From Sphingorhabdus profundilacus (GTDB lineage Bacteria; Pseudomonadota; Alphaproteobacteria; Sphingomonadales; Sphingomonadaceae): 64,000 nucleotides of DNA. A program made the position numbers and the translations under genes. Below the pieces are notes generated by a model, which saw only the letters and a list, made by a program, of their open reading frames with translations, had not been told where the DNA came from and made no database searches. Shown here in pieces: positions 39,980 to 42,857 of this stretch (positions within the stretch are counted from its first letter, which is position 1; every line of letters starts with the position of its first letter). The stretch spans positions 1,302,001 to 1,366,000 of the forward strand of contig NZ_SDWJ01000001.1 in the NCBI RefSeq assembly GCF_009769755.1, in the 5' to 3' direction.

Positions 39980-40432
39980 ATGCGTATCGCCATTGCCTCC
40001 GACCATGCCGCCCTTGCGCTGAAATCCGCGCTGGTCGACTATGTGCGCCAACTGGGCCATGACATCACCGACCTTGGTCCGCACGACGAAAGCTCGGTCG
40101 ATTATCCCGACTATGGCTATAAACTCGCCGCCGCAATTGCCGATGGCGATGCCGAGCGTGGCATTGCCTTATGCGGGTCGGGCATTGGCATTTCGATTGC
40201 GGTCAACCGCAACCCCGCCGCGCGCGCCGCGCTCGTATCCGAACCGCTGTCGGCGCAATTGGCCCGCGAACATAATGACGCAAATGTGATTGCCATGGGC
40301 GCACGCCTGATCGGCATCGAAATGGCAAAAGCCTGCGTCGACCGCTTTCTTACAACGGAATTTGGTGGTGACCGCCACCAGCGCCGCGTCGATAAATTGT
40401 CCAACCCGCAAAATGCGAAGGAATCAGCATGA
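39980..40432 (+). CDS. rpiB: Ribose-5-phosphate isomerase B
   Basis: Interconverts ribose-5-phosphate and ribulose-5-phosphate. The 150 residues fit Rpi[16 protein letters not shown] opens it, the catalytic cysteine is C65 in [15 protein letters not shown], and the [15 protein letters not shown] segment is typical. The ATG at 39980 has AAGGA 7 bases before it; the ATG at 39974 is too close to that site. It overlaps glyA by 4 bases. Confidence 0.95.
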
Positions 40433-41733
40433 GCAGCCATCCCGCAAATGACATCCAGAACAACGGATTTTTCACGCAACCCCTCGTCGAGCGTGATCCT
40501 GAAATTGCAGGCTGGATTGCCAAGGAATTGGGCCGCCAGCAGGACAAGATCGAACTGATTGCGTCGGAAAACATTACGTCACGGGCGGTGCTTGAAGCCA
40601 CGGGTTCGATCCTGACCAACAAATATGCGGAAGGCTATCCCGGCAAGCGCTATTATGGCGGCTGTGAATATGTCGACGAGATCGAGACCATCGCTATCGA
40701 ACGCGCCAAAAAGCTGTTCGGTTGCGAATTTGCCAACGTACAGCCCAATTCAGGCAGCCAGATGAATCAGGCGGTGTTTCTCGCGTTGCTTCAGCCGGGC
40801 GATACGTTTCTGGGGCTGGATCTGAATTCCGGCGGTCACCTAACGCATGGCTCGCCTGTCAACATGTCTGGTAAATGGTTCAATCCGGTCGCTTATGGTG
40901 TGCGGCAGGACAATCATTTGATCGATATGGACGAAGTTGAGCGGATCGCAAAAGAGACAAAACCAAAGCTGATCATCTGCGGCGGCACGGCTTATTCGCG
41001 CGGCTGGGATTGGGCACGCTTCCGCGAGATTGCGGACGAAGTCGGCGCTTATCTGATGGCTGACATGTCGCACATCTCGGGCCTAGTTGCAGGCGGAGCG
41101 CACAGTTCCCCTGTTCCGCACGCACATGTTACAACGTCCACAACCCACAAGTCGCTGCGTGGGCCGCGTTCAGGTATCATCCTGACAAATGACGAGGCGC
41201 TGGCCAAAAAGTTTAACTCGGCGATTTTCCCGGGACTTCAAGGCGGTCCATTGGTGCACGTAATCGCAGCGAAAGCCGTATGTTTTGCCGACGCGATGAA
41301 GCCGGAATTCAAAAGCTATGCCGCGAGTGTCGTCGAGAATGCCAAGGCATTGGCGTCGTCTTTGCAGGAACAGGGGCTCGATATCGTGTCGGGTGGCACT
41401 GACAACCATTCGATGCTCGTCGACCTTCGCCCAAAGCAGGCAAAGGGCAAACATGCCGAGCATGCGCTCGACCGCGCCTCAATCACCTGCAACAAGAATT
41501 CGATTCCGTTCGATCCAGAAAAGCCGTTTATAACGTCTGGCCTGCGATTGGGTACACCTGCGGGCACAACGCGTGGATTTGGTCCAGCCGAATTTCGACA
41601 AGTCGGCCGTATGATCGCCGACGTTGTGGAAGGCCTGCGCCACAATGGAGAGGCCGGCGACGGCCAGATCGAAGCGCGGATCAGAGAAGAAGCCGAAGCA
41701 ATGTGCGCGCGCTTCCCAATCTATCCCTCTTGA
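40429..41733 (+). CDS. glyA: Serine hydroxymethyltransferase
   Basis: Converts serine and tetrahydrofolate to glycine and methylene-tetrahydrofolate, the main one-carbon source. It has 434 residues. [20 protein letters not shown] and the [22 protein letters not shown] block are present. The PLP lysine K241 is in [16 protein letters not shown]. The start overlaps the rpiB stop. In many alphaproteobacteria nrdR follows directly, but here an inverted-repeat element and a small gene lie between. Confidence 0.97.
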
Positions 41734-41758
41734 ACTATATAGGTGACTTACCCATCTA

Positions 41759-42021
41759 GGGTCAGGGTTGCTTCAATGCACGTTCGAGGTTTGAGGCCAT
41801 TTTGCTCAGGGCAAGGAAGGAAGCCGCAGGGATATAGATATATCTCAAGGCTTTCTGACGCGGCCATGGGCAAAATGGGTCAAATCCTTCGGACGCCAAA
41901 ATGGCTTTGATCTCGGACCAAAATACGCTTGCAGGCAGAATGACTGCCTGACGGCGCGCATTTTGCTCCGATATCTTCGCCATTTTGACGCCTCGAACGT
42001 GCATTGAAGCAACCCTGACCC
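41759..42021. mobile_element. 263-bp element with 31-bp perfect terminal inverted repeats
   Basis: The ends 41759-41789 and 41991-42021 are exact inverted copies, starting GGGTCAGGGTTGCTTCAATG. TA flanks both ends (41757-41758 and 42022-42023), as expected for a TA target duplication of the IS630/mariner kind. There is no transposase, so it would be non-autonomous (MITE-like). It contains several AAAATGG or CCATTTT motifs and one small minus-strand frame. Confidence 0.75.
41762..41983 (-). CDS. Small frame inside the inverted-repeat element
   Basis: 73 codons from an ATG at 41983, stopping inside the left terminal repeat. GAGG, lying in the right terminal repeat, sits 7 bases before the ATG. 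The product is MAKISEQNARRQAVILPAS..., with a mix of hydrophobic and basic residues and no recognised domain. It may be a real protein carried by the element or an accidental frame; the sequence alone does not decide. Confidence 0.35.
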   Translation of the reverse strand: MAKISEQNARRQAVILPASVFWSEIKAILASEGFDPFCPWPRQKALRYIYIPAASFLALSKMASNLERALKQP

Positions 42022-42044
42022 TATACACAGAAGGGATTTTGATC

Positions 42045-42395
42045 ATGGGATATTGTAACGATTGCGACGGCGAGTATCAGGACGGAGCCAAATTCTGCCC
42101 TCAATGCGGCGCGAAGACACCCGAGCAGCGGGCGGCGGAGAGCATTCCGAACCAGGCCAAGCATTATGTTGGTGAGGCCGCCGACGAATTATGGGGTGCG
42201 ACCAAGGACGCATTCCACACCGGCAAGCATCTCGCCGATCAGGATACGGTCAAGAAAGTCGCAGGCGGTGCTGCCATCGGCGCAGCCGCAGCGGTCATCG
42301 CGCCTATCGGCCTTGCCACCGGTGCGTTGATCGGCGCCGGGATTGTCGCTTACCGCCATGTGAATAAAAAGAAAAATCAGGAAAACCAGAAATAG
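42045..42395 (+). CDS. Zinc-ribbon protein with glycine-zipper membrane region
   Basis: 116 residues, function unknown. The N-terminal zinc ribbon has C4, C7, C18 and C21 (YCNDCDGEYQDGAKFCPQCG). A polar linker follows, then a long glycine- and alanine-rich hydrophobic stretch (AGGAAIGAAAAVIAPIGLATGALIGAGIVAY) resembling glycine zippers. The tail is basic (KKKNQENQK). AGAAGGG precedes the ATG by 9 bases. A longer frame would begin inside the inverted-repeat element and was rejected. nrdR starts directly after its stop codon. Confidence 0.8.
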   Translation: MGYCNDCDGEYQDGAKFCPQCGAKTPEQRAAESIPNQAKHYVGEAADELWGATKDAFHTGKHLADQDTVKKVAGGAAIGAAAAVIAPIGLATGALIGAGIVAYRHVNKKKNQENQK

Positions 42396-42857
42396 ATGCG
42401 TTGCCCATTTTGCGGACATGATGACAGCCAGGTCAAGGACAGCCGTCCGACCGAGGACAATAGCGCCATCCGCCGCCGTCGCCAATGTGAAGGCTGTGGC
42501 GGGCGTTTTACGACCTTTGAACGAATCCAGCTTCGCGAATTGACGGTTATCAAAACCGAGGGGAATCGCGAACCGTTCGAACGGGAAAAGCTTGAAAGAT
42601 CGTTATCGGTCGCTTGCCGCAAGCGCCCCGTTGACAGCGCGCAGATCGAAAAACTTGCGTCAGGCATCCAACGCCAATTGGAAACTTTAGGTGAAAGCGA
42701 AATTGAATCGAAGCGGATCGGCGAATTTGTCATGGATGGCCTGAAGGCGCTCGACAGCGTTGCTTATATCCGTTTCGCCTCGGTATATAAGGATTTCAAC
42801 GAGGCAAAGGATTTCGAAGATTTCGCCGGGAGCGTCGTCGAAGCGGCAAAGAAATGA
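42396..42857 (+). CDS. nrdR: Transcriptional repressor NrdR
   Basis: Represses ribonucleotide reductase genes in response to ATP and dATP. The 153 residues have the zinc finger C3, C6, C31, C34 (CPFCGHDD ... CEGCGGRF) and an ATP-cone from about 48 ([30 protein letters not shown]). [19 protein letters not shown] is the conserved C-terminal segment. The start follows the previous stop with no gap (TAGATG), and the stop overlaps the next gene (ATGA). Confidence 0.97.

Follow-up and report, generated by a model that had tools for sequence, protein, structure and literature searches.

The gap between glyA (positions 40429..41733, + strand, named from a reading of its translation) and the gene for a zinc-ribbon protein (42045..42395, + strand, with its start at the ATG common to the relatives), which is followed by nrdR (42396-42857, also named from its translation), holds a sequence bounded by a perfect inverted repeat. 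The question that this locus of Sphingorhabdus profundilacus raises is whether the sequence is a mobile element and, if so, what kind of transposase moves it. The window is the whole stretch of DNA that was analysed, 64,000 nucleotides in length, and positions are counted from its first letter. We conclude, with a probability of about 0.88, that this sequence is a single member of a Sphingomonadales MITE family that IS5-family (IS427-group-like) transposases mobilise in trans.

The whole copy, as delimited by the repeat arms, the other copies and the empty site in relatives, occupies 41757..42023 and comes to 267 bp with both TA dinucleotides, that is, 263 bp plus a TA on each side. The two arms (41757-41789 and 41991-42023) are 33 nt long, 100% complementary and separated by 201 nt, and each consists of 31 bp plus the TA; the perfect 31-bp inverted ends, flanking TAs and 263-bp length described in the first-pass annotation are accordingly borne out. 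The left terminal inverted repeat proper (41759..41789, + strand) is of a diverged A type (see below), with its outer ~20 bases presumably recognised by the transposase, and the right one (41991..42021, - strand) is its exact complement. Given that element-free relatives read CATCTAATACACAG at the site, the left TA (41757..41758) and, from the sequence and the same empty site, the right TA (42022..42023) are the putative target duplication.

Evidence of mobility comes from the host genome and from its relatives. A search of the host genome (2.9 Mb, completeness 99.97%) for the element gave 34 match rows, including 14 near-full copies in which both ends start with TAGG and the flanks are unrelated to each other. 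The glyA-nrdR stretch, used as a query, has matches in 39 of 41 genus genomes (own included); among the 30 glyA/zinc-ribbon loci that were taken, 25 (own included) were readable at the site by flank patterns. The element-free site CTAATACACAG is present in 23 of these 25 loci, the remaining two being the window copy and a copy in genome G223, and two of the five loci that were unreadable by patterns (L141 and L143) align across the element-free junction. The four nearest relatives at the locus (G215, G228, G218 and G206; 84-89% identity) are all empty, and the window copy is therefore recent in its own lineage. The first-pass annotation, which had proposed to look for further copies and for empty TA sites, named as the contrary outcome a repeat conserved at this exact place across genera and lacking other copies; the 14 near-full host copies, the further copies across Sphingomonadales and the 23 empty loci are the opposite of that pattern. 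Its call of a MITE, i.e., a short multi-copy element with perfect inverted ends and no transposase gene, inserted at TA and missing from the corresponding sites in relatives, thus stands. The empty sites in relatives carry one extra A (TAATAC, vs TATAC to the right of the window element), so that the target duplication is TA only if this A was lost or absent before the insertion. The copy in G223 (L121, on G223:C20) is a member of the family that occupies the TA used by the window copy but points the other way; it most simply reflects a second, separate insertion and makes this TA a recurrent target.

Beyond the genus, the window copy as a query has matches in 20 of 199 family genomes (own included) and in 14 of 96 genera, and a search of named genomes with a pattern of the core returned at least 113 loci, 80 of which, assessed by taxon, are nearly all from Sphingomonadales. 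The matches listed include Sphingopyxis, Novosphingobium, Erythrobacter, Altererythrobacter, Sphingobium, Stakelama, Tsuneonella and other genera, together with three MAGs named only as Alphaproteobacteria or Pseudomonadota and one Acidobacteria MAG (L269) from which no complete element was recovered. Altogether 89 complete elements were extracted from the at least 113 loci, 24 of the 113 listed giving none (9 cut at the end of the locus, 15 with poor arms). Among these matches, the length is 266-269 bp in 83 of the 89 elements and exactly 268 bp in 61; a second set of 46 elements, which overlaps the first in genomes and is not independent of it, contains 44 of 266-269 bp, with pairwise identities of 54-98.5% (median 67%). 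A TA is found on both sides in 55 of the 89 elements from the matches listed, and in 54 of these 55 a Y precedes the left TA and an R follows the right one. The ends fall into two main classes, A, which begins TAGGGTCAGGACC, and B, which begins TAGGCCGTRAACTCATAA: among the matches listed, both ends are A in 44 of the 89 elements, B in 33 and other in 10, the remaining 2 are mixed with 'other', and no copy has A facing B (0/89). Six plasmid records (from Sphingopyxis, Sphingobium and Novosphingobium) also contain matches, and no annotated feature lies under any of the six, in a gene table that covers protein-coding genes only and gives just one entry in total for one of these records. No paper on this MITE family was found in the open-access literature that was searched, and the exact string GGGTCAGGACC occurs there only in one unrelated paper.

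The host genome contains 31 exact occurrences of TAGGGTCAGGACC and none of the reversed pattern, even with one mismatch allowed. Eleven of the 31 sit in near-full copies; inspection of 18 of the other 20 gave 10 bare 13-14-bp ends with TA or CTA immediately after them, 6 truncated elements and 2 other cases. The bare A-type ends (L031, L032, L035, L040, L042-L046 and L048, of which L032 may be a truncated element) are probably scars of lost copies that would have been removed by deletion between short repeats within the hairpin. An intergenic preference of the host copies is only suggestive: 4 of the 14 lie in a joined ORF of at least 100 aa, vs 54% of 195 Y-TA-R sites in the window (Fisher p 0.10), and at a threshold of 150 aa the figures are 3 of 14 and 49% (p 0.06). 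One host copy (L010, G000:C2:1064506-1064771) may interrupt a gene, a 428-aa ORF spanning the junction once the element is removed.

The full length of the element is palindromic. In the predicted fold, the ends pair as an outer stem, followed by two long hairpin arms and a tiny junction hairpin; the fold energy of the 267-base element is -162.3 kcal/mol on the + strand (z -17.1) and -155.8 kcal/mol on the - strand (z -15.5), with none of 200 shuffles as low in either case. In window positions, which were converted by hand from alignment columns, arm I of the conserved core (helices 2-4) lies at 41790..41884, the small junction hairpin (helix 5) at 41885..41893 and arm II (helices 6-8) at 41894..41990, all three being delimited by fold and covariation. 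Covariation was analysed on 45 aligned elements, one of 283 bp (L098) having been left out of the alignment (A2). The resulting three-way junction comprises 91 pairs, with 96.4% of cells paired and 65 of the 91 pairs changed on both sides, and such double-sided changes occur in each of the 8 helices, the inner arms included. The covariation score is 0.508, vs 0.156 in shuffles (0 of 500 as high) and at most 0.105 when the alignment is slid, with the qualification that these controls leave kinship in and that the structure was derived from the same alignment. The strength and spread of the covariation are hard to explain without a conserved structure. In two host copies (L013 and L014), arm II is flipped relative to the other copies, and inversion within the element therefore occurs.

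Complete ISs that carry the same ends were identified when end queries were run against plasmids: A ends are found on an 838-bp element of Novosphingobium sp. P6W and B ends on an 851-bp element of Ensifer sp. PDNC004. The Ensifer element has two overlapping ORFs and the Novosphingobium element two non-overlapping ORFs, the first with a broken frame. With NF033580 ('IS5 family transposase'), whose cut-off is 110 bits, scores of 137-153 bits were obtained for the two Ensifer ORFs and for the second of the Novosphingobium ORFs, and an A-ended Sulfitobacter ORF reached 100 bits; another locus (L187) has in-frame stops. Of 26 IS loci that were tried, 12 were left unused (a second or a convincing end was wanting, or they were near-repeats), and for the remaining 14, which measure 838-886 bp, both ends could be defined: they are of class A in 7 ISs, of class B in 4 and of another type in 3. 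Each of the 14 shows a Y preceding its left TA and an R following its right TA; since the script accepted only ends with a TA, the adjacent Y and R alone count as evidence. For 8 of the 9 congeneric ISs with A or B ends, the query of the matching end class gives the transposase its higher score; the exception is L189, which combines A-like ends with a transposase a little closer to the B query (99 vs 109 bits). The full-length element with a transposase sharing the ends, for which the first-pass annotation had suggested a search, has been found for the A and B end classes, as 838-886-bp ISs of the IS5 family.

When 92 MITE ends were compared with these ISs, 81 proved closer to a left end of an IS than to any right end, 6 were closer to a right end and 5 were tied. 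Both ends of the window copy are among the 6 and match poorly either way, at best 14/20 to a left end and 15/20 to a right end. The exact window end has no match in the genome contig collection and none outside its own element in 44 genus genomes; two of the genomes (G216 and G223) hold TAGGGTCAGGGTCACTTAAA, at three mismatches from it, and by its sequence the window end looks like a diverged A type. The core gave only 20-23-bp matches to the 14 ISs, in 7 of 130 core rows. An internal-deletion derivative of these ISs, with one left and one right end, was considered and is not the pattern observed: with most ends left-like on both sides and core matches that span only 20-23 bp, the family did not arise from the tested ISs by simple deletion. 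Searches of the host genome with PF01609, NF033580 and two of the IS proteins returned no match, and protein searches detected IS5-type transposase genes in 13 of 43 genus genomes; the host genome has no detectable IS5 transposase, and its MITE copies therefore look orphaned. By eye, no pair of exact A ends at IS spacing was noticed among the matches from the 149 genomes searched, 14 of which had any. At one locus (L206, 1481-2591), a B-type IS5 element lies directly against a MITE of A type and shares its terminal TA, an apparent insertion at the TA of the MITE.

Two other interpretations of the locus have to be weighed against the IS5 assignment. The first-pass annotation had taken the feature for a non-autonomous IS630/Tc1-mariner element on the strength of its TA target and perfect inverted ends. 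TA duplication and the Y-TA-R preference fit IS630 as well, a family that prefers CTAG targets, and IS630-like DDE_3 genes are present in 5 of 42 genus genomes (own included), at 13 loci. However, only one of the 13 loci (L157) is bracketed by the ends (at most 2 mismatches, within the flanks fetched), and there an IS of ~1.17 kb is nested inside a MITE copy; the IS5-family elements carry matching ends themselves, and no IS630-type DDE_3 gene was found in the host genome. The IS630 assignment therefore has to be replaced by the IS5 one, and we consider it very unlikely. The IS630-like element at L157 (~1388-2559) lies within a hairpin arm of the MITE, and the same element is found, unbracketed, at four other places fetched from G223 (L154, L155, L156 and L158).

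The very stable fold and its covarying helices could instead indicate an immobile host locus that encodes a regulatory or structured RNA (a terminator, an mRNA stabiliser or an sRNA), and the wobble pairs of arm I are indeed biased by strand (G-T 102 vs A-C 9), much of this bias coming from three pairs. Yet the outer stem is unbiased (G-T 15, A-C 18) and arm II is biased in the opposite direction (G-T 12 vs A-C 32), so that a single transcript does not fit. The + strand folds better for arm I in 46 of 46 elements and for arm II in only 2 of 46. Selection at the RNA level, as a reading of the wobble bias, was rejected given the opposite directions of the two arms. Furthermore, 23 of the 25 readable loci are empty, the copies have unrelated flanks, the three Rfam matches are all far below the gathering scores, and no T-run terminator was found in a scan. 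An immobile RNA locus thus appears very unlikely, and the IS5-mobilised MITE is the interpretation retained below.

An A copy and a B copy from the host genome are 97.2% identical in the core and 38% in the outer ends; for the window copy and a B copy, the values are 96.2% and 28%. The identity breaks between core and ends at about base 29. The same combination is found across species, in two Novosphingobium elements (L226 and L266) whose cores are 98.6% identical and whose end classes differ. In a tree of 126 cores (64 A, 45 B; elements outside 262-274 bp excluded), we counted 12 changes of end class, or 8 on well-supported branches only, compared to a mean of 34.9 in shuffles, in a tree for which the bootstrap had not fully converged. 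One reading of these observations, somewhat less likely than not, is a modular parasite of transposases in which a DNA core of ~210 bp, nearly fixed in length and folded as a three-way junction, would have had both ends exchanged at once, repeatedly, between two IS5-family lineages that differ in their end codes; the palindromic design may let one new end be copied to the opposite side. An alternative, to which we give not quite an even chance, is that the A and B lineages are old, that the ends were not swapped onto the cores and that gene conversion acting on the ~210 bp in common has kept the cores of one genome alike. Conversion over this shared stretch would leave the non-homologous ends untouched, and 17 of the 25 closest A/B pairs listed fall inside one genome (16 in the host genome, 1 in Novosphingobium sp. 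MD-1); the flipped arm II of L013 and L014 is in line with rearrangement within the element. Close A/B pairs also occur between species, however, as in the two Novosphingobium elements, and conversion still requires at least one change of ends at the origin. Conversion competes with end exchange and not with the assignment of the family to IS5-mobilised MITEs, and we lean slightly toward a combination of within-genome conversion and a few true exchanges of ends.

Under the IS5 reading, an IS5-type transposase supplied in trans would bind each end over its outer ~20 bp and move the element into a Y-TA-R site, with duplication of the TA. The element would have entered the gap between glyA and the zinc-ribbon gene after its own lineage split from the sequenced relatives, and it is now probably stranded unless an incoming IS supplies the transposase. 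An exchange of ends, where it took place, could have proceeded by replacement of one end that was then copied through the hairpin.

The ribosome site of the zinc-ribbon gene, GAAGGG (42030-42035, + strand), is outside the element and is present in the relatives with empty sites; the suggestion of the first-pass annotation that the element could supply signals for this gene finds no support, given a native ribosome site and promoter and terminator scans near chance (1 promoter-like site vs 0.5 expected; 0 terminators). The gap to the gene, given there as 24 bases, is actually 21, with the ATG at 42045. If glyA and the zinc-ribbon gene are co-transcribed, so stable a structure between them could cause polarity. 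The element itself has long open frames, some of which continue through the ends: the best frame per element has a median of 86 codons vs 71 in base-shuffled sequences and reaches at least 70 codons in 121 of 126 elements vs 68 of 126. These longer frames perhaps result from composition or palindromy. A coding reading was not adopted because no one frame is kept across the elements; in the best frame, 92 of the 126 have 70 codons free of stops.

Both MITEs and IS5-driven mobility are already known kinds of thing; what is unusual here is the near-fixed length and covarying three-armed fold maintained across an order, the mostly left-like character of both ends, and the pairing of one core with two end classes. 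The usual view of a bacterial MITE is that of a decayed copy of a single IS. The present family departs from that view in that its core has no extended similarity to the 14 ISs and its two main end classes match two IS5 end types, and it offers a natural setting in which to ask how an element without its own transposase comes to depend on a different one and why a structure that is palindromic over its full length persists. It is also a repeat family that is unmarked in the plasmid gene tables examined (6/6 matches).

The enterobacterial ERIC (RU-1) elements are TA-flanked palindromes of 127 bp for which, to our knowledge, there is no IS partner. They are likewise intergenic, MITE-like and gene-free, a resemblance by description (PMC2759123, PMC2229807). 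The ISs identified here that match NF033580 have terminal classes A and B and the Y-TA-R target in common with the MITE; the ISs are 838-886 bp long and have a transposase and two unlike ends, whereas the MITE of 267 bp has no transposase and mostly left-like ends. As described in the sections consulted of one report, elements of the IS427 group are 832-865 bp long, nearly all with 2-bp duplications, and members carry two overlapping, frameshifted ORFs (PMC3281130). The ISs defined here resemble this group, exemplified in the same sections by IS1248 and ISPpa2 in Paracoccus, in length, 2-bp duplication and ORF layout, a placement made by description and not by end sequences (PMC3281130). MITEPye1 of Paracoccus yeei is also alphaproteobacterial, with inverted ends and a long predicted stem-loop, and is thought to be moved in trans; it differs in its IS1182-family ends, as assigned by its authors, and in its 1-3 copies per chromosome, and the portion of that paper used here describes no exchange of end classes (PMC11578231). 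TIMEs, derived from Tn3, are likewise non-autonomous miniature elements with mosaic forms, and differ in having Tn3-family ends, according to the part of the publication that was available (PMC4133298).

Additional elements with related ends were encountered on plasmids of Phaeobacter, Nitratireductor and Pseudosulfitobacter, where A-type end pairs lie 203, 271 and 311 bp apart (L162:2501-2703, L163:2501-2771 and L165:2501-2811, respectively); these are probably further MITE families with the same ends. Three more end types, TAGGCCGTGTTGACAAAAG, TAGGCGGCGTGGACAAATT and TAGGTRGTGTTTACATTC, are found on IS5-type elements of 852-867 bp (L183, L190 and L192).
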